Below, piece after piece: positions 5,383-58,260 of a stretch of DNA of 64,000 nucleotides (position 1 is its first letter; each line of letters starts with the position of its first letter). This DNA is from Erodium maritimum (lineage: Eukaryota; Streptophyta; Magnoliopsida; Geraniales; Geraniaceae). The notes under the pieces are model-generated. The model was not told the DNA's origin and did not search any database. It was given only the letters and a program-made list of their open reading frames with translations. The DNA lies in contig OY997594.1 in assembly GCA_963921825.1 (NCBI GenBank), positions 1,183,001 through 1,247,000 of the forward strand, read 5' to 3'. Both the position numbers and the translations under genes were made by a program.

Positions 5383-5849
5383 AGACACCCCAGATCTGTT
5401 TCAGTATTTTTGTTTTGTTTTAAAATTGGTGGAGGGTACAAAAATATGTATTTGAGGCCAATCGGAAAATCTTGTTTTAAAAATGATGATTTTATCCTCT
5501 AAATAATAATAAAAGGAAAACATGGAATATTAATTTTTATCCGTCTTATTTTCTTTCTCTTTATTCGATATGAACATTTCTAGTTTTTTCTTTCTCTTTA
5601 TTCGATATGAACATTTCTAGTTTTTTTTTATTTGCAACTTCTTAACTTAGGGGTAGGGCTATCCAAATTGGACCCGGAATCCGGCCTAACCGGTCATTGG
5701 GTTTCCCCCAATGGATTATTAGGGGGCGGTCTATTTTTTTATAATTAGTGTCCTTAAAATTGAATTTCAGACGGTCTATTTTATTCCATCTAATGATTCT
5801 TTGAGAATCCACAGTGGGCTGGATGGGAGCCGACTGGGAACAAAAATGG
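5383..5849. other. Spacer between RAMP4 and the tandem array
   Basis: No gene. There is a short tandem duplication around 5564-5625 (TTTCTTTCTCTTTATTCGAT twice). 5645-5720 holds a GC-richer segment with AACCGG/CCGGAATCCGG motifs like those in dispersed repeats at 20460 and 32290. Confidence 0.4.
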
Positions 5850-8800
5850 ATGGAGAACAAGAATATGCATATCTACGCATACCAAGTATTTTTAGGCTAA
5901 TCCGAGTTCGTTATGCCCGTGAAAAATAGATTTTTCGTTTTTCACTGTTTTCGGCATACTAGTATGTCAGAATCGGCAAAAAAATGGAAAAAAATTGTTA
6001 TCGGGTTAAAACACGCATGGAGAACAAGAATATGCATATCTACGCATACCAACCATTTTTAGGCCAATCCGAGTTCGTTATGTCAGTGAAAAATAAATTT
6101 TTCGGTTTTTCACCGTTTTCGGCATAGTATGTTAGAATCGGCCAAAAAGTGGAAAAAAAATTATTATCGGGTTAAAACACGCATGGAGAACAAGAATATG
6201 CATATCTACGCATACCAACCATTTTTAGGCCTATCCGAGTTCGTTATGTCAGTTTAAAATAGATTTTTCAGTTTTTCACCGTTTTCGGCATACCATAGTC
6301 TGTCAGAATCGGAAAAAAAGTGGGAAAAAATTATTATCGGGTTAAAACACGCATGGAGAACACGAAGATGCATATCTAAGCATACCAACCATTTTTAGGC
6401 CAATCCGAGTTCGTTATGTCAGTGAAAAATAGATTTTTCGGTTTTTCACCGTTTTCGGCATACTATAGTATGTCAGAATCGGCAAAAAAGTGGAAAAAAA
6501 ATTATTATCGGGTTAAAACACGCATGGAGAACAAGAAGATGCATATCTACGCATACCAACCATTTTTAGGCCAATCCGAATTCGTTATGTCAGTGAAAAA
6601 TAGATTTTTCGGTTTTTCACCATTTTCGGCATGTCAGAATCGGGAACAAAGTGGAAAAAATTATTATCGGGTTAAAACACCCATGGAGAACAAGAATATG
6701 CATATCTACGCATACCAACCATTTTTAGGCAAATCCGAGTTCGTTATGTCAGTGAAAAATAGATTTTTCGGTTTTTCACCGTTTTCGGCATATTATAGTA
6801 TGTCCGAATCGGCAAAAAAGTAGAAAAAAATAATTATCGAGTTAAAACACGCATGGCGAACAAGAATATGCATATCTACGCATACCAACTATTTTTAGGC
6901 CAATCTGAATTCGTTATGTCAGTGAAAAATAGATTTTTCGGTTTTTCACCGTTTTCAGCATACTATAGTATATCAGAATAGGGAAAAAAGTGGAAAACAT
7001 TATTATCAGGTTAAAACACGCATGGAGAACAAGAATATGCATATCTACACATACCAACCATTTTTAGGCCAATCCGATTTCGTTATGTCAGTTAAAAATA
7101 TATTTTTCGGTTTTTCACCGTTTTTCGGCATACTATAGTATGTCAGAATCGGCAAAAAAGTGGAAAAAAATTATTATCGGGTTAAAACACTCATGGAGAA
7201 CAAGAATATGCATATCTACGCATACCAACCATTTTTAGGCCAATCCGAATTCATTATGTCAGTGAAAAATAGATTTTTCGGTTTTTCACCGTTTTCGGCA
7301 TACTATAGTATGTCAGAATCGGCAAAAAAGTGGAAAAAAAATTATTATCGGGTTAAAACACTCATGGAGAACAAGAATATGCATATCTACGCATACCAAC
7401 CATTTTTTGGCCAATCCGAGTTCGTTATGTCAGTGAAAAAAAGATTTTTCAGTTTTTCACCATTTTCGGCATACTAAAGTATGTCAGAATCGGCAAAAAA
7501 GTGTGAAAAAATTATTATCGGGTTAAAACACGCATGGAGAACAAGAATATGCATATCTACGCATACCAACAATTTTTAGGCCAATCCGAGTTCGTTATGT
7601 CAATGAAAAATAGATTTTTCGGTTTGTCACCGTTTTCGGCATACTATGTCAAAATCGGAAAAAAAGTGGAAAAAATTATTATCGTGTTAAAATACGCATG
7701 GAGAACAAGAATATGCATATCTATGCATACCAACCATTTTTAGGCCAATCCGAGTTCGTTATGTGAGTGAAAAATATATTTTTCGGTTTTTCACCGTTTT
7801 CGGCATACTATATAGTATGTCAGAATCGGCAAAAAAGTGGAAAAAAATTGTTATCGGGTTAAAACACGCATGGAGAACAAGAATATGCATATCTACGCAT
7901 ACCAAGCATTTTTAGGCTAATCCGAGTTCGTTATGTCAGTGAGAAATAGATTTTTCGGTTTTTCACCGTTTTCGGCATACTATAGTATGTCAGAATCGAC
8001 AAAAAAGTGGGAAAAATTATTACCGTGTTAAAACACGCATGGAGAACAAGAATATGCATATCTACGCATACCAACCATTTTTAGGCCAATCCGAGTTCGT
8101 TATCTCAGTGAAAAATAGATTTTTCAGGTTTTCACCGTTTTCGGCATACTATAGTATGTCAGAATCGGCAAAAAAGTGGAAAAAAATATCATCGGGTTAA
8201 AACACTCATGGAGAACAAGAATATGTATATCTACGCATACCAACCATTTTTAGGCCAATCCGAGTTCGTTATGTCAGTCAAAAAAAGATTTTTTCGGTTT
8301 TTCACCGTTTTCGGCCTACTATAGTATGTCAGAATCGGCAAAAAAGTGGAAAAAATTTATTGCCGGGTTAAAACACGCATGGAGAACAAGAATATGCATA
8401 TCTACGCATACCAACCATTTTTAGGCCAATCCGAGTTCGTTATGTCAGTGAAAAATAGATTTTTCGGTTTTTCACCGTTTTCGGCATACTATAGTATGTC
8501 AGAATCGGAAAAAAAAATGGAAAAAAATTGTTATCGGGTTAAAACACGCATGGAGAACAAGAATATGCATATAAAACACGCATGGAGAACAAGAATATGC
8601 ATATCTACGCATACCAACCATTTTTAGGACAATCCGAGTTCGTTATGTCAGTCAAAAATAGATTTTTCGGTTTTTCACCGTTTTCGGCATACTATAGTGT
8701 CAGAATCGGCAAAAAAGTGGAAAAAATTATTATCGTGTTAAAACACGCATGGAGAACAAGAATATGCATATCTACGCATACCAACCATTTTTAGGACAAT

Positions 8801-10360
8801 CCGAGTTCGTTTTGTCAGTCAAAAATAGATTTTTCGGTTTTTCACCGTTTTCGGCCTACTATACTATGTCAGAATCGGCAAAAAAGTGGAAACAAATTAT
8901 TATCGGGTTAAAACACGCATGGAGAACAAGAATATGCATATCTACGCATACCAACAAATTTTAGGACAATCCGAGTTCGTTATGTCAGTCAAAAATAGAT
9001 TTTTCTGTTTTCACCGTTTTCGGCATACTATAGTATGTCAGAATCGGAAAAAAAGTGGAAACAAATTATTATCGGGTTAAAACACGCATGGAGAACAAGA
9101 ATATGCATATCTACGCATACAAACCATTTTTAGGCCAACCCGAGTTCGTTATGTCAGTTAAAAATATATTTTTCGGTTTTTCACCGTTTTCGGCATACTA
9201 TGTCAGAATCGGCAAAAAAGTGGAAAAAAATTATTATCGTGTTAAAACACGCATGGAGAACAAGAATATGCATATCTACGCATACTAACCATTTTTAGGC
9301 CAATCCGAATTCGTTATGTCAGTGAAAAATAGATTTTTCAGTTTTTCGGTTTTTCACCGTTTTCGGCATACTATAGAATGTCAGAATCGGCAAAAAAATG
9401 GAATTTTTTTTATCGGGTTAAAACACGCATGGAGAACAAGAATATGCATATCTACGCATACCAACCATTTTTAGGACAATCTGAGTTCGTTATGTCACTG
9501 AAAAATAGATTTTTCGGTTTTTCACCGTTTTCGGCATACCATAGTATGTCAGAATCGGCAAAAAAGTGGAAACAAATTATTATCGGGTTAAAACACGCAT
9601 GGAGAACAAGAATATGCATATATACGCATACCAACCATTTTTAGGCCAATCCGAGTTCGTTATGTCAGTGAAAAATACATTTTTCTGTTTTTCACCGTTT
9701 TCGGCATACTATAGTATGTCAGAATCGGCAAAAAAGTGGAAAAAAATTATTATCCGGTTAAAAAACGCATGGAGAACAAGAATATGCATATCTACGCATA
9801 CCAACCATTTTTAGGTCAATCCGAGTTCGTTATGTCAGTGAAAAATAGATTTTTCGGTTTTTTCACCGTTTTCGGCATACTATATAGTATGTCAGAATCG
9901 GCAAAAAAGTGGAAAAAAATTATTATCGGGTTAAACACGTATGGAGAACAAGAATATGCATATCTACGCATACCAACCATTTTTAGGCCAATCCGAGTTC
10001 GTTATGTCAGTTAAAAATAGATTTTTCGGTTTTTCACCGTTTTCGGCATATTATAGTATGTCAGAATCGGCAAAAAAATGGGGGAAAATGTTTATCTGGT
10101 TAAAACACTCATGGAGAACAAGATTATGCATATCTACGCATAACAACCATTTTTAGGCCAATCCGAGTTCGTTATGTCAGTGAAAAATATATTTTTCGGT
10201 TTTTCACCGTTTTCGGCATACTATGTCAGTATCGGGAAAAAAGTGGAAAAAAAAATTATCGGGGTAAAACACGCATGGGGAACAAGAATATGCATATCTA
10301 TGCATACCAACCATTTTTAGGCCAATCCGAGTTCATTATGTCAGTGAAAAATAGATTTTT
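5850..10360 (+). repeat. Tandem array of ~28 copies of a ~170-bp satellite-like monomer
   Basis: The block starting ATGGAGAACAAGAATATGC recurs at 5850, 6017, 6183, 6353, 6524, 6683, 6853, 7022, 7193, 7364, 7534, 7698, 7870, 8039, 8208, 8379, 8550, 8582, 8749, 8919, 9088, 9253, 9429, 9599, 9769, 9941, 10111 and 10275. Spacing is 159-176 bp, mostly 169-171, apart from one 32-bp partial duplication at 8550-8582. Each monomer holds CATACTATAGTATG (a perfect 14-bp palindrome in most copies) and ATATGCATAT (also palindromic). Copies differ mainly by point changes and A-run length. The apparent ORFs of 60-135 residues here are the monomer translated and are not genes; 170 is not a multiple of 3, so frames drift. 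Confidence 0.95.
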
Positions 10361-10381
10361 TTTTTACTGTGTAAGAGAAGT

Positions 10382-11725
10382 ATGAGCTCTTTCCTCTCGT
10401 TTGGATCTGAGCTTCTATTTCTCTATGGAGAGTACTGTAAGATCGTGTCCCGTTTGCCCCCAGCCAAGAAGAAAGCACTAGGGAAGAAGGGAGAATCTCG
10501 TACTCGGCCGGCTCGGTTTGCTACCAACGATCTGAAGACTGCTGCTGCGAGATCGACGTCCCTGTCTTAGAAGTAGAAGGTCGCGCAGTCGAAGTCCCTG
10601 TCTCAGACGAAGGTTGCGCCGTCGAAGTCCCTGTCTCAGACAAAGGTTGCGACGTCGGTGGTGGAGGTTTCAAGATGCACGACTTCGAATCCTGACGCTG
10701 TGGCCCCAGGTATGGCTGCTCCGGTGAAGGAAAGTCGGAGTCTGTCTTCTTCAGGTCCTGTTTCAACTCGTTTTGATTATAGTGAATCTGAGATTTACAT
10801 TCGTAATCTCCCTTACGCTACGTCGGAGGAATGGGTTAGAGGACATTTCTCATCTTTTGGCGAAATCGATTCTCTATCCCTACCTAAGAAGACAAATCGA
10901 TCGGGCCTAGCTTTTGGGTTCGTCCATTTCTTTTCGTCGACAGCAGCCCTTCAAGCAATTGAGGCTTATAATGGATACAAGGTGAATGGATATAGGTTGT
11001 TTGTGGCCTTGTCCCGGAGTAAGGTCCAAAGTATAGAAGCTCCGGCGTGTATTCCGGCGTTGGACGCAAAACATAGCATATGCTCTATTTTGGGTGATTT
11101 AGGTGCAGCATAGGGTACTAGCAATGGAGCAGCCACGAGGGTGTCCTCTAAAGCTGCTTCGGTTCGTCTGGAGGGTGTTTCTGGGATTCGGATTGATTGG
11201 GAAGGCTTTCAGGTCCGGTTGGACATGGCTTCCATGCCGAACTCCGGCGAACTGACCTGGCGGCTTCTCGACTATCTCACGTCGAACCCGGAGTTGATTG
11301 AGGCGTCCATGGATTACGGGATGGCGAAATCGCTGAATTTGATTTTGAACGAGCGTGATTGTAGGGATTTGCTCTCAGACGCAATTCTTCCCTCTTTTGA
11401 CGAAGTACAGGTTGAAGACGAGGACGGTGCTGGGCTTTCACAATCCGGCCCAGGTGTTGGGCCTGCAAAATCCGATCCAGTAGGTGCAGCTGGGCTGGTT
11501 AACAAGGACCCTTGCTTGTTTGATATTTTCAAACGCATTGATGTTGACTTGGACCCGAAAGTGAGCTCGGTTACACTCAAAGCTGTGGAGGGGGCCCGTG
11601 TTGAGGGTTGTTCTCCGAGTGAGCTTGCGTTAGGTTTGGCTAAGGATGGGTTCGCAGGTATGACTCAAGTTCTGACGTACTATAGTATGCCGAAAACGGT
11701 GAAATACCAAAAAATCTATTTTTAA
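10382..11725 (+). pseudogene. Decayed intronless ORF with an RNA-recognition motif, between the inverted arrays
   Basis: One frame stays open for ~1.34 kb apart from three TAG codons (10568-10570, 10574-10576, 11111-11113). It then runs into the inverted array and stops at 11725. Around 10785-11030 it encodes an RRM: RNP2-like IYIRNLPY at 10793-10816 and RNP1-like GLAFGFVHF at 10904-10930, followed by NGYKVNGYRLFVALSRSK. The downstream part (after 11141) is acidic and unrecognised. RRMs of this style, without introns, occur in ORF1 of some plant LINEs, and gene fragments are also captured by foldback, MULE or Helitron elements; I cannot decide between these. With three in-frame stops it is unlikely to make a full protein. 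Confidence 0.6.
10558..10656 (+). repeat. 33-bp minisatellite, three copies, inside the RRM pseudogene
   Basis: Copies at 10558-10593 (36 bp, variant), 10594-10626 and 10627-10656 share GTCCCTGTCT.AGA..AAGGT. The unit is in frame and encodes a KSLSQTKVA-type peptide. The first copy has TAG where the others have CAG. Confidence 0.8.
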
Positions 11726-12640
11726 CTGACCTAACGAACTTGGATTGGCCTAAAAATTGTGGGTATGCATAGATATGCATATTCTCAGTCTCCATGCATG
11801 TTTTAACCCGATAATAATTTTTTCCACTTTTTTGTCGATTGTGACATACTATATAATATGCCGAAAACGGTGAAATACCAAAAAATCTATTTTTCATTGA
11901 TCTACCGAACTCGGATTGGCCTAAAAATAGTGGGTATGTGTATACATGCATATTGTTGTTCTCCATTCATGTATTAACCCGATAATAATTTTTTACATTT
12001 TTTTTCCGATTCTGACATACTAAAGTATGCCGAAAACGGTGAAATATCGAAAAATCTATTTTTCATTGACCTAACGAACACGGGTTGGCCTAAAAATTGT
12101 GAGTATGTGTAGATATGCATATTCTCATTCTTCATGCATGTTTTAACCCGATATATTTTTTCCACTTTTTTGCCGATTGTTACATACTATAGTATGCCGA
12201 AAACGGTGAAATACTGAAAAATCTATTTTTCATTGACCTAACGAACTCAGATTGACCTAAAAATTGTGGGTATGCGTAGATATGCATATTCTCATTCTCC
12301 ATGCATGTTTTAACCTGATAATAATTTTTTCCACTTTTTTTGCCGATTGTGACATACTATATAGTATGCCGAAAACGGTGAAATACCGAAAAATCTATTT
12401 TTCATTGATCTATCGAATTTGGATTGACCTAAAAATAGTGGGTATGCGTATATATGCATATTGGTGTTCTCCATGCACGTTTTAACCCGATAATAATTTT
12501 TTCCATTTTTTGTCAATTCTGACATAATATAGTATGCCGAAAACGATGAAAATCCGAAAATTCTATTTTTCATTGACCTATCAAATTTGGATTGACCAAA
12601 ATATAGTAGGCATGCGTAAATACGAGAATATGCATGGAGA
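11680..12640 (-). repeat. Inverted, diverged array of the 170-bp monomer (~5.5 copies)
   Basis: The reverse complement of the 5850-10360 monomer recurs here with a ~170-bp period: the CATGCATGTTTTAACCCGAT-type block is near 11793, 11963, 12133, 12300 and 12472. This subfamily has its own diagnostic changes (for example GTGGGTATGCGTAG where the left array reads as AACCATTTTTAGG context). Both arrays point inward toward the RRM ORF like long inverted repeats. The outer edges of both arrays fall near the same monomer phase, at the ATGGAGAA / AGAATATGCAT motif. Confidence 0.92.
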
Positions 12641-12783
12641 AAAGCTGGTTGCTGGCTGACAAGCAAGGCCACACACGTGGAGAGTGTGTCTATGATTGTC
12701 CGTACATATCCACGTGTCTCGCCTTCGAGGCTCCGATTCGAAACGAGAATGGGATTATTTAATTTTAATTTTAATTTATTTCT
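12641..12783 (+). promoter_or_regulatory. Probable proximal promoter of the SPL gene, squeezed against the array
   Basis: Only ~140 bp separate the array end from the likely SPL leader exon. The stretch holds two ACGTG-core elements (CACACGTGG near 12671 and CCACGTGTC near 12711, G-box/ABRE-like) and an AT-rich run near 12757-12780 that could serve as a TATA region. The assignment is inferred from position. Confidence 0.4.
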
Positions 12784-14687
12784 GTGACGAATCCGAAAGC
12801 TCAGCTACTTCGTCTTCATGAGTCTCGCATTTCCCGAAGTCGTCGTCGTCGTAGTCGTTTCTGCGAAGCTCTCAGAATCACAGTGCTTCAGAGCTCGCTT
12901 CCAGTTTTCGCTTTCAGCTTCAAACGAACCGGAAATCGAGGAATCGCAGTTTCGCTCCTCAGCTTTTTCGCTTCTTTGTCCTCCGGAGATTCCTTCTTTC
13001 CCGATTGGGAGAGGCAAAGGCTCGGCTCGGACTGATAGGTAACGATCTCGCATTTTGCGAGAATTCGTGTTTCCTTCTCTGATTTTCTCGGGATTGGCGA
13101 GGAAAATGAAAGCGTTTGTGTATTTATTTTTCGTAATTCTCGTCGCGTAGGGATGGTTTTGATTTTCCTCTTCCTGATTTTGTTTGGATTGATACGGAGG
13201 AAGCAATGGATCATGAATTTTCTGGTTTCAGAGAGCAATCTGTTCTGAAATTTAGGCTCAGATTGGAGCATTTTGTTTGTTAGCTTACCTTCCATAATGT
13301 GGAGTATGGACTGTGGAGTGTTTGGATGTTTCTTTTAGAATGTCCTCATTTTCTCGGGAAAGTGGAGGTGCAAGTAAGCGGACGGCACCGTTTGGTTACT
13401 TGGAAACTCGTTGAGTTTCTCCTCCATTTTCCATGGAAAATGTTTTCCTTCGTTTGGAATCAAAACCTAGAGTACAGTAGATGGGGGACCAAAATTTCCC
13501 TAAATCCTTCACAAACCCTAGGATGGGGACCATGACTTACCTAAGACTTGGTTGGCAATATTTATGACAAGTTTAGCTTCGATGACAATTTGTCCTTGTT
13601 AGCTTCCATTGCAGAGGGAAATTAAATAGATGAAGAAAATAACATTTTTGTAATGATTGTTTCAATAGATAGGACAAATCATTTTTTCTTGATTCCCTTT
13701 ATATTTATGTATTGATGATTTGGGCGACCTTGTTGGTTAATTTGGTAGTTGATTTTGATTATTTGTTTGTGTATATGTGATTTGTGCATATTTGTTTATT
13801 AGGTTCCGAGGTGGTTGTGTTGGCAAATCAACATACCATGGCTTCAAGGGAATGTGGGATCTGTGGGTTGGTTCTAGGAACTGTTGGGTCTTTGGGGGTC
13901 TTGTGATTAATCGAGCTTTTAATGTCTGTTGTATGGTTGGTGTGAGGCGCATTTGATCACCGACTTTGAGCTTGCCCTGATATTTAGTGCTTAGTGGTGT
14001 GTATTATTGGTGTTGAAGTGAAAGCACTGAATAATTGTAAGTGAATGCATGATGTTAAAAGGTGAAACATATCAATTCTATATTGGCAGTACTTCCTAGG
14101 AATTATTGAGAGAGAGAAAGTGATGGCCTTGGAGAAGTGTGGTTAATGTCAATTTGGTAGATAGATAGCAGTAAAATTTCAAAAGGAGTTTGGCCAAACT
14201 GTTGTGGGATCTCCGGGAGAGTTCATTTATCTTATCTGGGACTAGAGGTTATTGTTGTTTCTTTGAATTGTGGGGATGGGACAGAGAACTTTGGGCATGT
14301 GATGTGTAAGGCTCCGAGGGCAATGGAGGTCGCGTAGATTTAGATGTTCTACCTTGAATATTCTTCTGTTGTAGTGTTACAGTGATTTACGGAACCTGCT
14401 GAGCCAGAGAATCTGAGATGAATAATCATTTGATCGTGTGATCTTTAAAGGCAAGTTTTTTCTTGATTCGCTATACCTTTGCTCAATTGGTTCTTTGCTG
14501 TATTCATATATTTTTTATCTCATGCTAGTGGGCGGTCTATTTTCTGTTTAGCTCTTAATTGTTGCTTTCTTCGATCTCCATAGATCCAAGACTTTATCGG
14601 TTCCTGTCTGTAATTTTGTTAGTTATTTGTCATTCAATGTTTGAAGCATTGGATTTGCAGGATCTGGTCTGCATTTTCTTGTTCATG
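12784..14687 (+). other. SPL 5' leader: predicted non-coding exon and leader intron
   Basis: A CT-rich, stop-poor stretch ends in GATAG|GTAACG, giving a donor at 13038/13039. A good acceptor TTTGCAG ends at 14660, 27 bp before the SPL ATG. The inferred leader intron is 13039-14660 (~1.6 kb) and contains no gene I can support. The exon carries an upstream ATG at 12818 that opens a 74-codon frame. A leader intron is common in the SPL2/10/11 group. Transcript data would settle the boundaries. Confidence 0.5.
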
Positions 14688-17600
14688 ATGGAGTGGAATG
14701 CTAAAAGCCCCTTGCAATGGGACTGGGAGAACCTATTTATGTTCAATTCAAAAGCAGTAGAATATCCTAAGAAGTCAAGGCCATCGGACTGGGTAATTGA
14801 TGGCGAGGGATCCATTGATTTTGGCTCTTTCTATGGATCTGCTGGGGGTAGGGTCGGTAGCGGTTCTTGTTCTGACGTGGGACATGTTTCTTCGAAGAGC
14901 TCAAAATCAGCTTCCATCAATTCTTCATCAATCGGGGAAATGAAAACTTCCAATTTCATTCATGAGGCTTTCGATGACATTCCTGAAGATTTTAGTAACA
15001 AAAAAGATTTCACCAAGCCCCACATGACTGATGCTTCTCCCACATTCGACACTTCAGTCTGCTCTGGTGAGCCACTGCTTGGTTTGGAGCTTGGTAGACA
15101 GACATACTTCGAAGATGTTTGTGCGGGAAGTAGTTCGAAGACCTCTTCATTATCTGTGATTCCAATGTCATCCGAGACACCAACTAAGAAATCCAAGACC
15201 AATTGTCTGAGTACACACAACCAACGCTGCCAAGTTGAAGGATGTAATCTGGACCTCTCATCTGCTAAAGACTACCATCGCAAACACAGAGTCTGTGAAA
15301 CTCATTCCAAGTGCTCCAAGGTCATTGTAAATGGTCAAGAGCGTCGGTTTTGCCAGCAGTGTAGCAGGTAAAGCTCTTATGAAATGAATAAACCTGTTTT
15401 ACTATCTACTTTATTGATCATTGAAGGGAGATTTTATAAACAATGGATTTTCATAGGTTCCATTGCATCTAATATGAAATTTAAATTCAATTTTGAATAA
15501 CACATAGAGGTTTTAATACAACCGATACGTGGTCTTTCATGTAGGTTCCATGGGTTGTCGGAGTTTGATGAAAAGAAGAGAAGCTGCCGAAGGCGTCTTT
15601 CTGACCATAATGCTAGGCGCCGCAAGCCTCAGCCAGAAGCTGTTCGATTAAGTCAGGGAATGCTCTCTTCATCATTGAATGGTAATTTTCTTTGTACATC
15701 ACACACTCCCTCCTTTTACTTCTATATCATGGCACCAAAGCTTGATATTTAGTTGGAACATCATTGAATCATTCATAATATAGTGAGACACCACCTTAAT
15801 GCTGCACAGTTCCCATAATAGTACACGTTTTTGCAGACTTCAGTCTGTACCTTCCTAAGTCCTTCTAAAGACATATCTGCCTTATGGTACAACATTTTAG
15901 TCTTCCAAAGAGATACTTTATGAATTTGTTTTATTCTTGTTCCCTTTTAATTCTAACAAATATCTTCTGAGTTTAATACTATTTCGATTTATGAATAGCC
16001 CTTTCCCATCTAGCTTTCAACCAATGGTTAAATCTATTGTTGCTGTAGGAAGCACTATTTGGTTGGATAGGAACTTCTTTATTTTCTGTGGTTAGGACTT
16101 AGAAGTAGAAATAATCCAAGCATAGCCATCCGTCCTTGCACAGATGTGTTTTCATTTAGCTCAACCGAAGTAGAAGCTGGGGTAGGATTAGTAGTGCACT
16201 GTAAAGTCAGAACATTTGTACTTGGAGCATGAATTGGTATTCTCTATTACTTCATTTTTAAATATAGCATTCAAGTTTTACAAATATGATCTTGCTTAGT
16301 AGAAGTAAGGATTATGATAGTACGAGGTATTCTCTATGATATTTGATATATTCTCCTGACATAGATTCGGTTTTAGGGACCAGTATTTTTAATCCAATAG
16401 AGCTCTCTCTCCAGTTTCAATCACGTTGCAAAAGAAGAAGAAAACGACATCCAGCTTCATTTAACTGTTGGTTACTGCTAGCATAGCTATTATACTTATT
16501 CCACATTACTTCAAGTCTTTCTTTCGTATTCATGGAAGTAAATATGGTAGAAATACACCAATCCAACTGGTCAATCACTTGAAATTAGGTCTTGGGACCT
16601 GGGTTTGTGGCTCCCATCCCGGACCCACGCCCTTTTATTTATGTATTCATTCCTTTCTAAGAAAAGTTAACTATGTTAGCTAACGTTTAAGTACACTAAC
16701 ATATACGCATATTAGAACGCACACATCAACCTTTGGAAATTACGGATACCTACACTAACTTTTATATATTTTCAAGATTTTAACAGATGCCTACACTAAC
16801 CTATCTGTTATAATTACAGATGCATACACTAACATGCATATCAATTGTAAAGGTTAGGGTAGGTATGTGTAATTTCCAATAGTTAGTGTGTGCATGTGTA
16901 ATATGTGTATAGGTTAGTGTAGGTAAACGTAATTAACTCTTCTAAGAAAGAGGTCTTGGGACCTGGGTTGAAGTCCCCGCCACGGTACCTCACTTAGAGC
17001 TCATGCTCGATACATCAATCTTAAAAACTTCTTTAAGAATAAAAAATGTTTGGTGCTTCCTTGCTTGATACACTTGTGTTTTAGTCGATCAAAAATATGT
17101 GCATAATTAGATTTGTTCTGTGCAGATATGAGGCAACAGATGAATCTGGTCCTGAATAGAGCACCCATGGTTCAAGCAAGAGCAGCTACAACTCTGTCAT
17201 GGGAGAGCACGTGCTTACCCACCTTTACACAAGCAAAAGGGTATCAATTTAAGCCAGCAAAAGCAGGAGTCATGGACGGACAGATGATCAATTTTTCCAG
17301 CAACGAGCTCTCAGTCACTAGTGGCTCTCATGATCATCCCAATAGGCTCTTACCCAGCAAGGCGACCACCGCTGAGGTTTTGAAAGGTATGTCTCTCATC
17401 CTTCCTAACAAATTGAACCACGTGATTATTTCATTTTGCTTGTTTTAGAAAAAAAAACATCATTCACACATCCACTTTGACATTTTATTGTCAATAACAC
17501 ACCATAAACTAAAGGTTAATGCATATTAATAACACGTTGTCACTTTATGATATCATCAAAAAACCACTGACCAAGTGGGTTTTGCATTAAAACCCAATTC

Positions 17601-19452
17601 TTGAGTCGGTTTTTGACGATAGGAAAAGGTGATAGTGTGTTATTGATAAACGAAGGTCAAAGTGTGTTAATGAACTACCTACTTACCCTTTTGTTTTATA
17701 AGTATTTGCTGACATCTTTAGCATCCAACGTCAAACACATATATTCTCTGGTGACTGATCTTCAGTAGCCAGAGTTCTGATTGTTTATCCTTTTTTTTAT
17801 CCCACATTGACTAACAACCCTAACTCTACCCTACGCCTTGGAGTGTTCGCCACCAACCTTTACATAATTACATAGAAGAGTGGAAGTGGACTAGTATAGT
17901 TAACTAGTCAAGGAAAACTCTACAGATTGCATGGAAATTTTCATACAGTTGACTTCGTCATAGAAGTTACTTGCCTTTTGTTGGTTGACTGTATCGACAA
18001 TTAAAATTTAGCGTGGCAAGATCGACCAAAATTTACATCAATGTTGTGTGAGATATCACACACTACCCTTTTTATGGACTAAATTACGTGTGTATCAAAA
18101 TATTTGGTTTATGACCTTGCTTTATGTATAAGCAAGGGAGTACCAAACATTTTTTTTAATCATTATTCTCAAACAACTTAAGACTGATTTATTTGAGTAT
18201 GAGTTCCCCTAGAGCATCCCACAGATATCATTACCCAATTTGTTCAAAAGATATCTAGATTAGAGAAAAAGATGCCATATAGGAAAGAGGAGAGAAACTG
18301 TAAGTATCCATGCTATATTTTCCCCTTAGAGCATTCCCGGTCGTTGGCGGATAGTTGACAAATCTGTGGCGGATGGGTGCATCGGTTATGTTACTGACGA
18401 CACTATCCGCCGGTGCCAACGTCTTGAAAAATATATTTTGACCAATGGTTGACCCTTAAAATATATATTTTTTATTTATAAAATATGTTGTAGTTTTAGA
18501 AAATGTTTTAAATTATTTTTAAATTTTAGTAATATTGAATTATTATTTAATATATATTTAATTTTAATTTAGTATACATTTAATGTTTTTTATTTTATTT
18601 TAGTAATTAAATTATTTTATATTTTTATCAAAATAAAAACACCCTGAAATTCTTTTATAATATTTATTTATTCTATATGTCAACAGGAAAAATACGATTG
18701 GAAATGAAATTCTATTAGTTTGGCTGATAAAATAGAGAAATAAATTTATTATTTTTTATTCTATCGACCGTCAACTTAGTTAATGACTAGAGACGCTCTT
18801 AAAATAATATTAACTAGTTAAAAAGGAATACAACGACAGAAAGACAGGACACATTGCATGTTGCGGCTGATTGGAGCAAAAAAAGAGGGGAGCAGTGCTA
18901 CGGCGGACATCGTTATGGCGCTGCCTTCCCATCAGAGACGTTATCGCCCACCTCAATGCCACCCTAGGAAGTTGCCCGACAAGGACTGAATAGAAAAAGA
19001 AGCCCAATAGTTACATAACTAAAAATAAACGAGCAAAGTTCCGGAACTTGAACCGATACCACAAGCAAGTTGAAGTGCTTGACCAATGCGATTTAATAGA
19101 TATATGCATTATGTAATTTATGTAAGCATCTTTACTTATCACAAGTTGTGCCTAATTACCTGACTTCATTTTCGCAGGTTTTGAAGAATCAGGCATGTCT
19201 TCCTCGAACATGGAAGGAACGCAGGACCTCCATCGTGCTCTCTCTCTTCTGTCAACAGATTCGTGGTCGCCGAAAGCCTCACTTCCTACGACAATGCACG
19301 GAAGAGGCTTGGAATGTTGGTACGCTGTTCAAGAGTCAACCAAATCGGACATGCATGTGTTGACTTCACCCACTGATCACAGCACCACCAATCACTTTCA
19401 AGAGTTCCAGCTGCTCAAATCACCTTTCGAAGGTGGGTTCTATCCACAGTAA
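14688..19452 (+). CDS. SPL: SQUAMOSA promoter-binding-like (SBP-box) transcription factor, SPL2/10/11 type
   Basis: Four coding exons, 14688-15367, 15545-15681, 17126-17386 and 19178-19452 (1353 nt), encode 450 residues. All junctions are GT..AG and phases match. The start [16 protein letters not shown] matches the conserved N-terminus of the SPL2/10/11 group, so the in-frame upstream extension to 14559 is rejected as leader or intron. The SBP domain spans ~179-256: zinc site 1 C181, C186, C203, H206; zinc site 2 C222, C225, H229, C241; then a basic nuclear-import stretch ([16 protein letters not shown]). As usual in this family, an intron splits the SBP box between the two zinc sites. Family members bind GTAC-core promoter sites and drive the juvenile-to-adult transition and lateral organ development. 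Exon 4 carries a miR156 site encoding ALSLLS. The introns hold MITEs. Exact paralogue assignment needs a tree. Confidence 0.93.
16664..16939. mobile_element. Foldback MITE in SPL intron 2, Mutator-like 9-bp target duplication
   Basis: Inverted arms of nearly 100 bp: the left arm runs from AAGTTAACTATG through GGAAATTACGGATACCTACACTAAC, and the right arm reads the same way on the minus strand (GAGTTAATTACG...GGAAATTACACATACCTACCCTAAC). TTCTAAGAA lies on both sides (16655-16663, 16940-16948). No ORF. Confidence 0.8.
17465..17690. repeat. Imperfect inverted repeat in SPL intron 3
   Basis: ATTGTCAATAACACACC / AATAACACGTTGTCACTTT on the left is echoed inverted by AAAGGTGATAGTGTGTTATTGATAAA on the right, with GTTAATGCATATTAATA-like ends. 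Probably a decayed MITE; no clear target duplication was found. Confidence 0.45.
18329..18798. mobile_element. PIF/Harbinger-type MITE in SPL intron 3
   Basis: Termini GAGCATTCCCGG and (minus strand) GAGCGTCTCTAG are flanked by TTA at 18326-18328 and 18799-18801, the 3-bp target duplication of this superfamily. The interior is very AT-rich with no ORF. Confidence 0.65.
19235..19254 (+). promoter_or_regulatory. miR156/157 target site in SPL exon 4
   Basis: The 20-nt stretch reads GTGCTCTCTCTCTTCTGTCA, the standard miR156-complementary site of plant SPL mRNAs, and encodes the core of ALSLLS. It implies that transcripts are cleaved or repressed by miR156 in juvenile tissue. Confidence 0.93.
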
Positions 19453-25100: not shown

Positions 25101-26119
25101 AAAGGAGATTCATAATATTTGAGAAGGGTTCCTAATCCCAGAATTCACAAGCTAGCCAACAAGATGATCCATCCCTTCTCCTCTTGTTCACAAGACCACT
25201 ATATAGTATTTGTAACAACACACAAACAAGTCCAAATAGACATATCAGAGGAGACAGTGTTAAGATATCATACCATCTGTTCTAGCACGCTTGGCTGCCG
25301 AGGAGTTTCTGTTATCCACCTAAACACCAAACATAAAAGCTCATTCATCAGCTATGCATTACTATTGATGTGTTTATATCTCGTTCAAAATGAAATTCAT
25401 GGACCAATTCCTTCAAACTTAATCAATCATACACTAGGATTTGAAATTGAGGCCCCTTAACTGAAATTCCCTAGAGCTAGCAAATCATCTCACCTAATAC
25501 ACTACGGTTTAAGATAACACACGATAATGCAAAATCTTCAAACTACAACATCCAAATGAGAAACCTAAACCTAATTTTCCACCAGCCAGATCATTACATT
25601 ACAAAAACAGGTAAAAAAACAACTATTATCTATTATGCAGGCGATAGTGCAACATAAATCAAATCATTCCAATTTTAACATGAATCTCAATTTCCAACCT
25701 CTTCCTTGGATCAAACAGTCATTCAGTAATTTTTTTAAAATACAACTATTACATGCAACATAAATCAAATTCTCACAGCTAATGCACTACGGTTTACAAT
25801 AACACACACATGATAATGCAAAATCCTCAAATTACAACATCCGAAGGAGAAACCTAAACCTAATTTTGCAGCAACCAGATCATTACGTTACAAAAATACA
25901 ACTATTACGCAGGCGATAGTGAAACATAAATCAAATCATTCCATTTCTACTACTAATCTCCATTTCCATCCTCTTCCCTGGATCAAACAGTAAATCCAGT
26001 CATTCCAAGAGAAAAACATGACGAACAAATGAGATTGCTAGATCTATCGTGGCTCGAAATCAATCGAGTATCAGTAAATTGAAATCGCACTCGTGGAGCA
26101 GATTATTCACCTGAGACAT
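22138..26119 (-). CDS. Protein with three RanBP2-type zinc fingers
   Basis: Nine coding exons read on the minus strand: 26111-26119, 25274-25319, 24487-24602, 23977-24241, 23669-23745, 23339-23384, 23113-23222, 22372-22396 and 22138-22286. All introns are GT..AG and the phases join to 281 codons. Finger 1 (C28, C31, C42, C47; DWTCPSCGNVNFSFRTTC), finger 2 (C196, C199, C210, C215) and finger 3 (C241, C244, C255, C260; SWKCEKCNNINYPFR) are separated by a Gly/Pro/Tyr-rich linker (58-171). I recall Arabidopsis At1g67325 with the same order. Such fingers bind single-stranded RNA or ubiquitin; which applies here is unknown. Exon 9 ends ENDQ|GTTTGT without a stop, so a further short exon with the stop is expected; reading through would stop at 21958. 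The first exon encodes only MSQ. Confidence 0.88.
25500..26008. repeat. 285-bp-period tandem duplication in intron 1 of the zinc-finger gene
   Basis: Copy 1 starts at 25500 (CACTACGGTTTA) and copy 2 at 25785. Shared blocks include GATAATGCAAAATC, GAGAAACCTAAACCTAATTTT, GCAGGCGATAGTG and ATAAATCAAATCATTCC. The copies have diverged by point changes and small indels. Confidence 0.8.
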
Positions 26120-28380: not shown

Positions 28381-30995
28381 TTAGAAAGAATTGTAATAAC
28401 TCGTGAAGACCATAACAACGATTGCTATCAATCCGGTGGCCGTGAAATGGGGGCTAACATTGTAGGAGCTGCTGCTCTGGTCGGCGGAAGTGGTCGGCGT
28501 TGCATTGGACGACGTGGTTGGAGCCGAAGGGGTAGTTGTGGAATTTGTGAATATGGCCGCATCCGGAGAGTTTGCGGCCAGACCTAGTAGACCTGTTCAT
28601 CCCAAAAAAACACATGTATTAGATTTAATTCGTCGTATTTTCAACGATTATTTATAAAGAAAATAAACCAAAGACCACCGAATAAATAAAGTTCGAAGCC
28701 CTCTAGAATTATGTGCCAATGATATAATGTGATATGTTATGATGTAAGAATGACATATTCTAGTTATAACTTGATTGTAAACGGTTAGAATGTGATGATC
28801 GGAAGACAAAATATGAGTTGATACTACAAATCTTTGATAACTTATGCTCAATTTGTTCGGGTTGCAAACCCTGTAATTATAAGGGTGTTTCAAATGTAAA
28901 TAGTCAGAGTCGGGTTTATGAGAGGTAAAAAAAATATTTCACGTTAGAGTGAGTGTTAAAATTGACCTGATAAAACTAGTCAAACAACCGAATTAATCTT
29001 GGGCTTTGATGAATCGTTTTTTAAACGATTAGAACATGCGGTGTCCAGATACATGAATCAGGTTGGGCTATCACCCGATCTTATGTTATCAAAATCGTTT
29101 CTGTCCATTCCTCCGTTCATAGGAGAAATCACGTCACATTCAAACAAATCCGCTCTAGTTATAATTGCTTTAAGCCTTTAACAAACATCATGCGTGTACT
29201 AGTTTGGTGCTAACAAAATGTGACAAAGACCAGTTCAATAGTATGACACATAGAGAACGACACGTCCCACCGAGCCCTACCACAGCTTCTAACCCAACCA
29301 GTCGATAAATAAAAGTACACTGTCAATAAATGAACTTCAATCTCAAATCAATAATGCAATGTAAATACATTCCTTACTAGGCACCAAATATTCCCTCTAC
29401 CCACATTTAATAGCGCCCTACCGTCTTCTCTCGGGTAATACATAAACATCGGGTTTGAAGTTGTATCGGTGAGATACCAAACTCTAGCATCAAATCAATA
29501 AAAAGACTAATCTGGTAATTAAATACTCAATTACGGTCCTATATTCTAACACGCGTTCTCATAAAAAAATCGTGTGGGATTTAGACAGTGAGACTTGACC
29601 CGTGTTTCGGAGGAATCTGATTGCAATATCATATTAAAAAATCAATTCAAATAAAAAATTAAATTGATAATTAAAGGTTCAATTATAATTATATTAAAAG
29701 TATTTTTGTTCCCTAATAAGTGGTTTTGCAAAGAATAGACTTGGGTAAAACAATAATAATGATAATAAAATCGGAGAGAACTCAAATGTTAAAATTTTGT
29801 GTTTTTAGAAAAAATAGGGTTTTAATTTTAAACTTTTAAAACATATTATGTTGAAACCATTAATCTATATATAATAGTAATTAATATCGTTAACTTTTTT
29901 ATATAGAATATCTAAGTTATTATTTGTTACCTTAAAAAGATTGAATCCTCGATTGTAAGAGCATCCCCAACCATATAGATGGTTGTTGGCGGTGAGGTGC
30001 TGACGGGGACAATAAAAAATCATTCTTTCTTCTTACGGTCAGCTCTCTCAGCCAGCACCCTACTATGGTAGTCCTTTTTGTTGGCTTTATGATAACTTTT
30101 TCCTTTCATTTTTTTGCTCTCAGCCAGCGATAAGGGTTGACGGTGAGCTAGCTACCAGCCAACACTCTTAGTCAACAATATTAAATTATTTTCTCTCTCC
30201 TTTTTGGACTCTCTCCTCGTTTTTCTCTCAGTTGGATGCTCTAAGGTTATGCATTTTAGATTTTGAGAGGTACAACATCATTACAAGCATGTGATCAATT
30301 TTCAAACAGATTTCGCTCATTTATACGACACCGATAGGAAATACAGGTAAGGGTCACATCATGCAATTACCACTAAAAACTTAGACTAATTAAGAATTAA
30401 TCAAATTAATCGGATCAGCCAACATAAAAATGAGATCTTGGCGGACGCCTAAACGGAACGCGATCGAGATTTTTAAAACACTACATGGAGTGATGTTTTT
30501 AGGTTTTACTTTCCGTTTCGTTTTTTCGCCTTATGTCGAGTTTGTGGAGCCGACGTTTATGTTTCCGAACCAAGACGCTAGGTCTGCCCAAACATTATAA
30601 CATCTATTTATACTCAAAAAATGAATAAATTAACGGGAGTACTCACCGGGACAATCACTGACGCTGGTGTTCTTAAGCTGACAAGCCTGAGGAAGCTGAA
30701 GCAGCTTCTCGGTTTTAATCCCGAGCTGCTTGATCTGCACGCTCCCATTTTTGCTCTGCAACGTTATAAAACACATGCACTTGGGGCTCTCCGTCCTCAT
30801 CTCCGTCACCGACGCGCAGCACTCCTTCGTCGGCGTCGACGCCTTCCCCGTCGCGAAGCTCAAGCACCCTATCACCTTCTGGAAGTCCTCGCTGCACTCC
30901 TCCGACAGCCCCGCGTCCGTCGCACGCGCCCCCTCCCGGAGCGTCGCCAAGACAACGACCATCGCGAACACAACCGAAACCGCTCTCCCTGCCAT
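28381..30995 (-). CDS. LTPG1: GPI-anchored non-specific lipid transfer protein, LTPG1 type
   Basis: Two exons, 30647-30995 and 28381-28592 (349 + 212 nt), give 186 residues; the donor is CCCG|GTGAGT and the acceptor GAACAG. The start at 30995 gives a signal peptide (MAGRAVSVVFAMVVVLATL). A longer in-frame extension upstream lies across the TATA box and is rejected. The eight-cysteine motif is complete: C34, C44, C59-C60, C73, C75, C105, C115. After it come a Ser/Thr/Pro/Asn-rich linker and a hydrophobic tail (TGLIAIVVMVF), as expected for GPI attachment. The segments EECSEDFQK, LSFATGKA and NSPDAAIFTN match Arabidopsis LTPG1 as I recall it. Family members sit on the outer plasma membrane and help move wax lipids to the cuticle. 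The 2.05-kb intron contains a Harbinger-type MITE and a TRIM relic. Confidence 0.93.
29503..29697 (-). mobile_element. Decayed TRIM relic in the LTPG intron
   Basis: Related to the element at 4606-5010: TATATTCTAACACGCG near 29541 and, near 29665, AATTGATAATTAAAGGTTCAATTATAATTATAT-like sequence in the same order. Much diverged, with the primer-site region reduced to GCAATATCATATTA. Confidence 0.55.
29959..30241. mobile_element. PIF/Harbinger (Tourist-like) MITE in the LTPG intron
   Basis: Inverted ends GAGCATCCCCAAC and (minus strand) GAGCATCCAAC are bounded by TAA on both sides (29956-29958, 30242-30244). 283 bp, no ORF. The ends begin like those of the full element at 55677-57810. Confidence 0.82.
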
Positions 30996-31066
30996 CGTGT
31001 CTCGTCGTTTAATTGCCAAATCCGTGTCGTTTCGTAACCTGAGAGAAGTGGTAGCTCGGCTCGGTG

Positions 31067-31076
31067 TTATATATAA
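31067..31076 (-). promoter_or_regulatory. TATA box of the LTPG gene
   Basis: TTATATATAA on the minus strand, ~70 bp upstream of the ATG at 30995. Confidence 0.65.
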
Positions 31077-31324
31077 ACTTTTTTCTCTTTTCCTTTTGAC
31101 GGCTTCATAAAGAGTGGGTCGATCTCGGCCGTTGATGGGTGTGGTGGGACCCACTTTAGGACGGTTGTGATGAAACTGTGGCGAAGTAAATGCAGTTGGG
31201 TGAGCTGGAAGATGTGTGAAGAGGGTGGTGGTTGAGGGCGTAGTAGTTATGATACCTTGAAAGAAACGACAGGTCGATTTAATGAAGGTGGCTTCGACTT
31301 TGCCGCCGTCGTGTTCAGGGGAGA

Positions 31325-31361
31325 CACGTGGCGGCAAACCACCGTAAGGCCGTGGCACGTG
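31325..31361 (-). promoter_or_regulatory. Pair of G-boxes upstream of LTPG
   Basis: CACGTG occurs at 31325-31330 and 31356-31361, 31 bp apart and ~260-290 bp upstream of the TATA box. The contexts CACGTGGC and GGCACGTGC are ABRE/G-box-like. Binding by bZIP or bHLH factors is inferred from the motif. Confidence 0.5.
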
Positions 31362-31376
31362 CTGGGCTAGTGGTGG

Positions 31377-33038
31377 TGTGTGGATGCATTTATAACTAAC
31401 CTATAATCACCCAACCGACCAATCGTCCGATATTAAAACTGTAGAAAGTCAAACTTTGATTTCAGTTGGTGATTAAGAGTTAAAGACCTTTAACAAACAA
31501 TACACGGATCAAAATCTTTAGAAGTGGTTTTTTATTTTCATATAAATATGAATATGATTGGGATTGTTAAAAAATATTTGATGATCTGTTCCGTTTGTTT
31601 ATCCGTCTGACTTGATGTTTACATGTTATTTATCCGCATATAAATGGGTTGGATAGTGGATCAGATTATATAGATTCATAATGATATACGGTAGATTACG
31701 AATTAAGGTAGATAGATCCGTGGATGATCTATGCGTCCGTACATAATACCGAAGCCAATTTAATACATAGAGTTCAATCAACGATATTACAAAACTCATT
31801 ACCATTCGACTCAACTACATGTATAAAATTGATATTTTTATAATAAAAAATCAAGTGTAATAGATTTTTAATGTAATCAAGTGTTTGGAAATTGTTTGAA
31901 TCAAAATTGTTGTTTTATTTTAAAATAATAATAATTTCTATCTTAAGTTTTGGTATAGTTACGGAAAAATTACACTATTGTACCCAATCCACCCGTATAT
32001 TTTACGGATGAAATCCTCGACGCTGAAATTTCCTCCGAAACGGATATATGCCTATGAACACCTTCCTATGACTATTGTTGTTAAACTTGGAGGAGGGACA
32101 GGACATTCGAATATACACGTGTCGTTGTTTAATTGGATGAAAGTACTGTACTTTCTAATGAAGCTGGTGTATCATGCATTTATCACCATTGTAAGCATCC
32201 CAACCGAACACTTCATGCAAAACCAAACCATGAAGAGTCAAACTTTGAAATTTTGAAATTAGTAAGTTGGTAGCTAGTAACCGGTCAGGCCGGTTCGGGT
32301 CTGAAATCAAGACAAATCCAAATCCGGTTTGTTAAAATAGTGGGTGTTTGAATCCGGATCGGGTTTTCCAAAAGAACTAGGGTCAAATTGGTTAGCGTAA
32401 GATAGTCTGTGGTAACTCGTTGTCCAATGAGAAACTCGTATTTGAACATTAATTTCTTTTTTATTCTAAAAAATGTAGTAATTTTCGACGTGTTTTTAAT
32501 AAGAAAGCTTCAATATAGGTTGGCGGGGGATAGAAAAATCTAATTTTTAAGTGAAGTTGTTCGGATGAATCTTCGGTGGCTAGACAAATGAAATATCGGT
32601 TATAAGTTATATGATAATCTTATCATCCAGACAGATCATTCAGTATTGAGCGAGAGCCCAATGACTCTTTGCTCAAAAATCTCATAGCCAAATGTTCTCT
32701 TTTTTTATAAATTTTGTAGCCTAGCCTGGAATATAACCAATGTGTTACAATTTCAGACAACTTGGTAATTTTATATTTCCCAAAATAACAGTTATTCGTA
32801 ACCAAATGTTAACTCGATTTGAATTAATACCATTAAAGATGATTTTACCGTGTCGGGTTTATTACGTTAAATTCCTAATATTATGTTTTTAAAATCCCAC
32901 ATGTTTTATTAAATTATTATGTGTATCAAAAGTAGTAGTGCAAAAATATGGAGTTCTAGAGTGCATGCCAAATATGTTTAAATGTTTAAATATGTAAAAC
33001 TAATGAAATTAAAAACAATTTAACTTAAATCATAAATA
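31377..33038. other. Intergenic region between LTPG and tRNA-Val
   Basis: AT-rich with no supported gene. 32275-32380 carries ACCGG-rich dispersed-repeat sequence similar to 20460-20600. Confidence 0.4.
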
Positions 33039-37582: not shown

Positions 37583-37999
37583 AAATAAATACCTCCCATT
37601 TCTTTTTTTTTCTTTTTTGAGCGAAATGGGCAATTGTATTAACTTTATATTACACATTGATGTGCATCAGGGAAACGCTCTTAGACCACTAATAAGATCA
37701 GATAGAACGAGTAATAACTTATTGAACCTTTTAACACTATAACCGTCACGTACGTTTTTTTAAAGATATATAGGCAAAGACAGAATACGAAGAGGGGGAA
37801 ATAGGGTGTCGTAAATCTAGGATCCCAACAACGGTGATGGCGGGAGGCAAAGCATCTACATGGACCCCTCCCAGGGCCAGTCCCTGATGATCGTCCTGAT
37901 GTTCTCTAGCTTTCTGGTCTTTGAGTGCTCCAGTTCAATCTCCAAACTTGTGCCCTCCACCTAATATCGGATTAGAGTGGGGGGGAGCCGGAACCCTAG

Positions 38000-38367
38000 C
38001 AATTGTGCCGCCCGGGGGAGGAGGGGCCATAGCAAAGTCTTGGCAAACCCTAGAAACCGCGCCGCACGGGGGAGGAGGGACCAGAGCGAGGTCTTGACAA
38101 ACCTTAGAAATCGCGCTGCCCGGGGGAGGAGGGGCTAGAGGAAGGTCTTGACCAAACGGTTGGGTCGGCGGAATAGGCCTTAGCAATTGTGCCGCCCGGG
38201 GGAGGAGGGGCCATAGCAAAGTCTTGGCAAACCCTAGAAACCGCGCCGCACGGGGGAGGAGGGACCAGAGCGAGGTCTTTACAAACCCTAGAAATCGCGC
38301 TGCCCGGGGGAGGAGGGGCTAGAGGAAGGTCTTGACCAAACGGTTGGGTCGGCGGAATAGGGTTTGG
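38000..38367 (-). repeat. 184-bp duplication built from ~54-60-bp GC-rich sub-repeats
   Basis: AATTGTGCCGCCCGGGGGAG recurs at 38001 and 38185. Each 184-bp unit has three sub-repeats with a C/GGGGGAGGAGGG core. On the minus strand the sub-repeats encode peptides such as LAPPPPGSAISRVC. 184 is not a multiple of 3, so the frame changes between the two copies. Confidence 0.85.
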
Positions 38368-44417: not shown

Positions 44418-44942
44418 TTACAAAAAGAGGAACACGTGGTATGACTTGAAATGCCTCAGAATACAAGTCAGTGCATCCGGTATTTGCATACCAGACCACG
44501 TTAAAAAATGCACAGAACGGACTTCCTTAGCAAGGCAATGTATAGTCCCGTTCGCAGTTCTAGAAATAAACTCGAGTTTAACATAATCGAGAGACATAAT
44601 GAGAGACCTACATTTTTTAATAATGCGGCCTACTGGAGAGAAAAGTGGGGTGACTCCATTAACTAGGCCTACCACAAAGTTGGCATCGCTCCGGACAATA
44701 ACACACGATCGTCCTGTCTCATTTATCCAAAGCAAGGCCTGATATATAGCCACAACTTCAACCATTTCGGGCCCCGGGGTGCCCTTCCACAACCCATTCC
44801 TCCCTTCCACTACAGCCGCTCTACCGTCCCTACATATAAAACCCCATCCCAATCGAGAAGTATCGACAAAGACCTCCCCATCCACATTTAGCGATAACCA
44901 GAGCGGTGGTGGTGGCTTCCACCCCTTTGTGCAAGGGTCCAT
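44418..44942 (-). pseudogene. RNase H domain fragment of a LINE-type retrotransposon
   Basis: 174 codons read on the minus strand. The order matches the plant RVT_3-type RNase H found at the end of LINE ORF2: WLSLNVDGE (first Asp), GWGFICRDG, EMVEVVAIYQAL (Glu), VIVRSDANFVVGLVN (second Asp), then a degenerate FISRTANGTIHCLAKE block where HRxxNxxAHxLA is usual. No reverse transcriptase lies upstream in frame, so this is a detached 3' piece. Alternatively it could be a host RNase H-like gene, but the lack of a defined gene structure argues against that. Confidence 0.75.
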
Positions 44943-45386
44943 CCTCGATTGGGTCTGCGGGGTGTGATGTTGTGTGCTTCCTTCCAGCCATGTACATTAC
45001 ATTTAACTGCTATATCGACCGAACGTATATCCGTAATACTAAAAACGACACAAAGTTTCGATATAGATTAAGTCCATTGGACTCACTTGTCTATTAATCT
45101 TGCATGCAAGCATGTGATACTGCAATTGGTACCAAAATCACGGCTCGTGACGATTATAGAATCAAATTAAGCTGTCTTAATTATGTTTCTCAATAATTAG
45201 ATTAACCTTAACTTAGTGAAAAAAATAGGTGGTAGGGTCAAAGAGTTTCTCTAATTATTCGTTGCGGAGTCAACAAGCGAAGACCGAGTCCCTGGCATGA
45301 TTGAGTAGACCTCTTCAAGCGATGATCGGTTATTTTATTTTGCTATAATTACTATTTACATTTTTACACAAAAATCATTAGAAAAA

Positions 45387-57449: not shown

Positions 57450-57530
57450 TTTCGAAAATAACGAGTAGGAAGTGAGAATGAAAGAGTGAAAATAGAGAAT
57501 GGTGTGAGAAAAATGAGAAGTGGGGTTGGG

Positions 57531-57538
57531 TATTTATA
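57531..57538 (-). promoter_or_regulatory. TATA box of the transposase gene
   Basis: TATAAATA on the minus strand, ~82 bp upstream of the ATG at 57449, inside the transposon. Confidence 0.65.
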
Positions 57539-57813: not shown

Positions 57814-58260
57814 TGGCTAAGTGTGGGTTTTTTCTAGGTGGCTGCGCTCTGTTCATCGCCGCCGTGCCGTGTTGATCTCTACAGGTGGCGTGTCTCAGGC
57901 TTGGTGTAGGGTCGGGTCGGGTCAGGCCCAAATCCTATGTGGTCTTACGTGGCGTACACGTGGAAAGTTACCATAATAACTCGAGTATTGGATCAGTAAT
58001 GTAATGCCACGTGTCTAGCTAAGGTTATGGCTGATCAACGGTCGGTATAGCCAAGATTGGGCGAGAGCCTGAATTGTTTTTTTTGGAAGAAAAATAAATA
58101 TATGAACGAAATAAGTACTAAGAAAATGAATTCAAAAACTTGAGTAGAGTTGGACTCAAAGCAGAAGCAGAAAAACTATTCTAGTGATCTCTGGTTCTAT
58201 TGTTACTAATGATGCAAGTGGCTTACCAACCTTCTTGATTTGCATTCGTGTATTGTACAC
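57814..58260. other. Intergenic stretch right of the Harbinger element
   Basis: No gene. Contains ACACGTGG and CCACGTGTC words near 57957 and 58006, with no adjacent gene to assign them to. Confidence 0.35.

Follow-up and report, generated by a model that had tools for sequence, protein, structure and literature searches.

Facing tandem arrays around a decayed RRM coding frame in Erodium maritimum, a possible foldback or Mutator-type transposon copy

Architecture of the locus

A stretch of 64,000 nucleotides from Erodium maritimum (Geraniaceae; assembly GCA_963921825.1, contig OY997594.1, positions 1,183,001 to 1,247,000 of the forward strand), hereafter the window and the basis of all coordinates given here, contains a locus in which two arrays of one 170-bp monomer face each other around a 1310-bp insert (Table 1). 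The left array runs in the direct orientation and the right array is inverted. Tandem Repeats Finder (TRF) reported the left array at 5850-10360 with a period of 170, 26.5 copies and 87% matches, and the right array at 11681-12622 with a period of about 170 and 5.6 copies. Segmentation on a 22-bp anchor cut the left array into 27 units, 26 of them near-full and one partial, with a 32-bp duplicate piece standing apart, and the right array into five anchored inverted units and one further outer unit. When the right array is reverse-complemented, the best local alignment of arm against arm extends over 944 columns at 88.0% identity. Monomers and the single insert are all that lies between the flanks, with inverted arms at both edges, and the locus presents the long inverted arms, internal tandem repeats and enclosed middle part of a foldback element.

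A preliminary description, made from the letters of the stretch alone, had reported two facing arrays of a single monomer in a foldback-like arrangement, with unequal arms and an enclosed coding piece. TRF, the segmentation and the arm alignment bear out this anatomy, which resembles that published for foldback elements and for Mutator-like elements (MULEs) with multiple terminal inverted repeats (TIRs). Of the copy numbers it had given, 5.5 on the right agrees with the TRF value and 28 on the left is to be lowered to about 26.5.

None of 193 BLAST pieces (E 1e-3) lay wholly outside 5800-12700, and therefore no further copy of the monomer or the insert exists in the window at that cut-off. At E 1 the insert also matches 20 bp at 25380-25399 (E 0.013), which is taken as chance. 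Exact monomer patterns were absent from collections of microbial (two patterns) and viral (one pattern) contigs, a result that says little about a plant repeat. The monomer was also considered as a strong hairpin and rejected as such, one unit folded as DNA giving a z of -0.95 with 35 of 200 shuffles as stable.

Table 1. Features of the locus and its near surroundings, in window coordinates
Feature	Position	Strand
Left arm, direct array, 26.5 copies of the 170-bp monomer, more homogeneous, star-like	5850..10360	+
Candidate direct repeat, 14 bp, 13/14 identical to 12622-12635	5857..5870	+
Internal duplication of 32 bp within the left array	8540..8604	+
Insert, 1310 bp	10361..11670	+
Decayed coding frame, 429 codons, TAG at 10568, 10574 and 11111; continues into the right array	10382..11670	+
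Tandem repeat of 33 bp, 2.5 copies, inside the coding frame	10576..10657	+
RRM_1 domain (residues 44-112 of the translated stretch beginning at 10664)	about 10793..10999	+
Right arm, inverted array, 5.6 copies, more diverged	about 11671..12621	-
Monomer-like remnant, direct orientation, at the outer right edge	12622..12641	+
Frame with SBP domain (SPL-type gene), MEWNAK start at 14688	14559..15371	+

The decayed coding frame of the insert

The insert has a G+C content of 50% (10361-11670) compared with 35% and 33% in the arms. One of its forward frames is interrupted by three stop codons, whereas the other five frames contain 13-32 each, and no frame that sparse in stops arose in 1000 dinucleotide shuffles; a coding origin for this frame is well supported. 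Judged by its longest open stretch of 185 codons, the frame stands out less, since 34 of 1000 shuffles reach that length. Pfam identified an RRM_1 domain in the frame (E 7.7e-17), and the stretch carrying it matched 111 distinct sequences in PDB at E 0.001 or less, while two further pieces of the frame, scanned at a cut-off of E 10, matched no Pfam domain. Because the three TAG codons are in frame, the frame is a pseudogene. More specifically, the feature previously described as a single intronless RRM-bearing open reading frame does bear an RRM domain and is no longer an open reading frame. Searches of three pieces of the frame against the window by tblastn returned only self-matches, and no inverted similarity was found between the two ends of the insert (120 of 200 shuffles were as good).

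Divergence of the two arms

The unit alignment comprised 27 left and six right units and left out the 32-bp piece at 8544-8575; the outermost right unit was cut to 12633 and so includes part of an odd edge. Mean pairwise identity is 93.3% within the left array, 86.4% within the right array and 86.1% between left and right, the latter two values rising to 88.6% and 87.2% without the outermost right unit. In a maximum-likelihood tree the left and right units are split with support of 95/92, five alignment columns exceed the diagnostic cut-off for left versus right, and the two consensus sequences are 94.0% identical over 168 columns (159/168 without the outermost right unit). The preliminary description had assigned the arms to distinct subfamilies and had argued that the locus is not a simple recent inversion of one array; the split, the diagnostic columns and the consensus sequences uphold the former statement, and the tree led to the rejection of such an inversion.

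The two arms also differ in their internal divergence. Left units lie on average 3.6% from their own consensus and right units 7.7% (6.4% without the outermost unit), about twice as far, and the right array looks older or less homogenised. Identity between left units is flat along the array (93.0-93.7% at steps 1-18), a pattern more in keeping with a single burst or thorough mixing than with stepwise duplication between neighbours. Units that share a variant are not grouped together in the left array and are if anything more spread, 977 of 1000 permutations giving a distance at or below that observed. Because identity is flat with distance and variant carriers are unclustered, the left array looks like the product of one burst, or a well-mixed array, that subsequently decayed. 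At sites with C or G, deviations from the left consensus are two to three times as frequent as at sites with A or T, in all contexts, an excess that is no more than suggestive of methylation-like decay. A higher-order period of 12 units was considered and rejected: 14 unit pairs at offset 12 hold 10 shared variants (51 of 2000 permutations as high), and over offsets 1-20 the corresponding figure is 756 of 2000, which is not significant.

Edges of the arrays

The outer ends of the two arrays had been described as stopping near the same monomer phase, which was taken to argue for a defined terminus. In phases of 170, the alignment of the left array starts at 169 (window position 5842; position 5850 is phase 7) and the right array has an outer phase of 27; the inner phases are 92 and 132. 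The agreement in phase is thus a loose one, as 169 to 7 and 27 are 20 bp or more apart in 170, and by arithmetic two random phases fall within 20 bp of each other about a quarter of the time.

The direct repeats at the edges themselves consist of monomer sequence. For a target site duplication (TSD) of the kind found in Pack-MULEs and multi-TIR MULEs, 9-11 bp with up to two mismatches was taken as the criterion. The pair ATGGAGAACA/ATGGAGAAAA fits by letter (9/10); it is monomer sequence, and about 7% of 400 random window pairs show a 10-bp match of this quality. The direct repeat ATGGAGAA is present at 5850 and 12634 (8/8), and such matches are seen in 6.5% of 400 random window pairs. Sampled pairs less than 200 bp apart were scored as misses in these background counts and in that of the longer 14-bp repeat. 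This repeat has a random rate of 3 in 6000 pairs and is flush with the homologous inverted arms, yet occurs 27 times (at most one mismatch) within the left array. Because the same stretch recurs there, this repeat is ambiguous: it may fit a target duplication and would equally fit a leftover direct-orientation fragment of the monomer. Were it the TSD, the ends would match at 11 of 13 positions, as read off the flank alignment. Direct similarity between the 500-bp flanks is not above chance (41 of 200 shuffles). The case for a defined terminus is accordingly weak, since the phases differ, the flanks have no inverted similarity above chance and the edge repeats are monomer sequence. A separate peculiarity of the right edge is that the 20-bp remnant just beyond the inverted array (12622-12641) carries its two halves in swapped order.

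Genomic surroundings

The edge of the right array lies about 2.0 kb upstream of the likely start codon of an SPL-type gene, and downstream of the SBP frame, at 19235-19254, there is a perfect match to what is presumably the miR156 target motif. A Pfam scan was run on all 65 stop-to-stop frames of at least 95 codons in the window; for one frame it covered the main part. The surroundings hold genes, with SBP, IRX15/GXM, lipid-transfer-type and RanBP zinc-finger matches, and no evident satellite domain. Rfam at the gathering threshold recorded one tRNA in the window and no match of any kind in the locus.

Comparison with known elements

The published systems are compared here as far as the portions of their accounts that were available describe them. 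Plant MULEs with tandem TIRs, some of them with gene fragments, were reported by Ferguson and Jiang (PMC3310237). In the text available, these elements are similar to the present locus in being plant elements, mostly non-autonomous, with TIR-sized tandem units at inverted ends and in some cases gene fragments. They differ in their 9-11 bp TSDs and in having two TIRs per end, as that search required, whereas the present locus has 26.5 and 5.6 units and no clean TSD. Candidates without a TSD had truncated termini, and elements with an extra TIR on one side only had hardly amplified and were judged poor at transposing (PMC3310237). A gene fragment between TIRs is a feature of both Pack-MULEs and multi-TIR MULEs, and an RRM coding pseudogene lies between the arms here; the G+C content of the insert relative to that of the arms is in line with the preference of rice and maize Pack-MULEs for G+C-rich sequence (PMC3310237).

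Tetris of Drosophila virilis (PMC4079207) likewise has inverted arms built of tandem units; these measure about 220 bp and gave rise to satellite arrays of up to 66 copies, and the portion of the account used here reports no transposase for the element. As described there, Tetris differs in possessing an outer flanking TIR domain, TSDs of 8-10 bp and a middle part without apparent coding capacity. In Galileo (PMC3573991) tandem repeats expanded independently in the two TIRs to unequal numbers, and chimeric copies are described with diverged arms and no matching TSD. Galileo is otherwise an insect element of the P superfamily with few repeats per TIR and a conserved terminal segment of about 40 bp (PMC3573991, PMC3688188); its tandem repeats contain extra transposase-binding sites (PMC3688188). 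Tm1 of root-knot nematodes (PMC3169594) is a Mutator-related foldback element with composite repetitive TIRs and a gene inside, and differs in its internal motif of about 14 bp, its mostly 9-bp TSDs and TIRs that are 93.15% identical on average. FARE of Arabidopsis and Tnr8 of rice, known here through citations in these accounts, are also plant foldback elements, and their structures fall outside this comparison.

Proposed origin of the locus

There is roughly an even chance that the locus is an old copy of a non-autonomous foldback or Mutator (Pack-MULE-like) DNA transposon with tandem 170-bp TIR units and a captured coding sequence. By analogy with the elements above, the 170-bp unit would be a duplicated terminal repeat, the RRM piece would have been captured and the left arm would later have been amplified in place. 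More specifically, each unit would have been a terminal repeat, or would have included one, with sites for transposase binding and perhaps for promoter activity, and slippage or unequal exchange may have added further units. The element could then have been moved to the upstream side of the SPL-type gene by a transposase acting in trans. The captured sequence, now a pseudogene, would have encoded part of an RRM protein, either a host one or one belonging to a retroelement. In the order of events that we infer, the insertion upstream of the SPL-type gene was followed by in-place amplification of a single unit type in the left arm, in the manner of a satellite burst, or by homogenisation of that arm, and the right arm for the most part decayed. 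The unusual features of the locus are its copy number and the asymmetry of that number, and both may reflect late local amplification.

Several observations weigh against this origin. No MULE transposase domain was found in any of the 65 window frames scanned, and there is no transposase domain inside the locus itself. No second copy was seen and no parent was found for the RRM frame, the plant sequence searched being the 64-kb window, so that the capture itself is a deduction. The 60 bp strictly outside each array contain no 9-bp direct repeat with at most one mismatch, and inverted similarity between the 500-bp flanks does not exceed chance (72 of 200 shuffles reached its score of 20). Unlike Tetris as described in the portion consulted (PMC4079207), the locus has no TIR domain outside the arrays. 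With the array edges taken as the ends, the outermost bases of the two arms do not match, and matching starts about 20 bp further in. Finally, because elements with one-sided extra TIRs are described as poor at transposing (PMC3310237), the strong inequality of the present arms makes it less likely that the element still moved once they had expanded.

A more far-reaching version of the foldback or Mutator-type origin is possible, though tentative. The locus would then be a plant counterpart of Tetris, that is, a gene-capturing element of which one arm became a nascent satellite by an in-place burst, in gene-rich surroundings upstream of a presumably miR156-targeted SPL gene; the two subfamilies of the arms would be the signature either of amplification within individual arms or of a breakpoint left by ectopic recombination. 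Should the locus prove to belong to a mobile family, it would offer a plant example of a transposon arm becoming satellite DNA and would show how far amplification of the terminal repeat in one arm only can reach (26.5 versus 5.6 units). As a long inverted repeat, the locus would also be a natural candidate for methylation guided by small RNAs, here close to a developmental regulator, the SPL gene that lies downstream. A single local relic, on the other hand, would be a curiosity.

The separate arm groups and the want of a clean target duplication are both marks of chimeric Galileo copies in the account available (PMC3573991), and the arms may accordingly come from two element copies joined by ectopic recombination, perhaps at an inversion or deletion breakpoint. 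Such a chimera is considered unlikely: the consensus arms are still 94.0% identical, single insertions show similar arm divergence (outer TIR identity 87-95% among the PM-ZIBP rows listed; PMC3310237), and arm-specific groups are also explained by unequal local amplification alone. An equally doubtful explanation dispenses with a transposon altogether and invokes an ordinary local satellite-like array, adjacent to or surrounding a coding pseudogene, that underwent inversion or inverted duplication. This would suit the absence of a clean target duplication and of matching termini, the inner and outer phases that differ between the arms, and the direct-orientation monomer remnant beyond the inverted array. 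The 95/92 split of the units does not fit a simple recent inversion, however, and the surroundings are those of genes (SBP, IRX15/GXM, lipid-transfer-type, RanBP zinc-finger) rather than of any evident satellite domain.

The 5' region of mouse L1 consists of tandem monomers, and the ORF1 proteins of some plant long interspersed nuclear elements (LINEs), the BNR family, carry an RRM domain. The decayed frame may begin at an ATG at 10382, about 20 bp past the left array and on the same strand, and carries an RRM, as would be expected of a LINE with a tandem-monomer 5' region and an RRM-bearing ORF1 that lost its 3' part and was joined to the opposite-facing 5' array of an older copy. This origin is improbable, as it requires two copies and a deletion, the scanned insert frames contain no reverse transcriptase or other LINE domain, and there is no poly(A) at the right edge; among the papers listed in one literature search, itself a weak test, there was no plant LINE with such a 5' array. 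The RRM frame may have had a host gene or a LINE ORF1 as its parent, the latter option drawing on this general background. Least probable is an assembly artefact in which two arrays were joined in false orientation. Inverted repeats are hard to assemble, but all 33 aligned units differ from one another, each arm has its own variants, and one 1.3-kb insert adjoins both arrays.

Other repeats and transposon-related frames in the window

An open frame of 498 codons at 56040-57533 (-) carries Plant_tran (E 6.8e-92) and DDE_Tnp_4 domains without an internal stop and encodes a PIF/Harbinger-like transposase. Near it, at 58259-58541, a 71-bp unit is repeated in 4.0 copies with 100% matches. A reverse transcriptase-like RVT_3 fragment, presumably of the RNase H type, is located at 44421-44996 (-; E 1e-14). 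Both the transposase frame and the RVT_3 fragment lie more than 30 kb from the arrays, and no relation to the locus was seen for either. A frame with a lipid-transfer-type domain is found at 30633-31400 (-; LTP_2, E 1.2e-13). Further repeats include a nested tandem repeat at 37992-38361, in which 54-bp units lie within a 184-bp duplication (98%), and a 105-bp duplication at 89-304 (97%) situated in an acidic reading frame.

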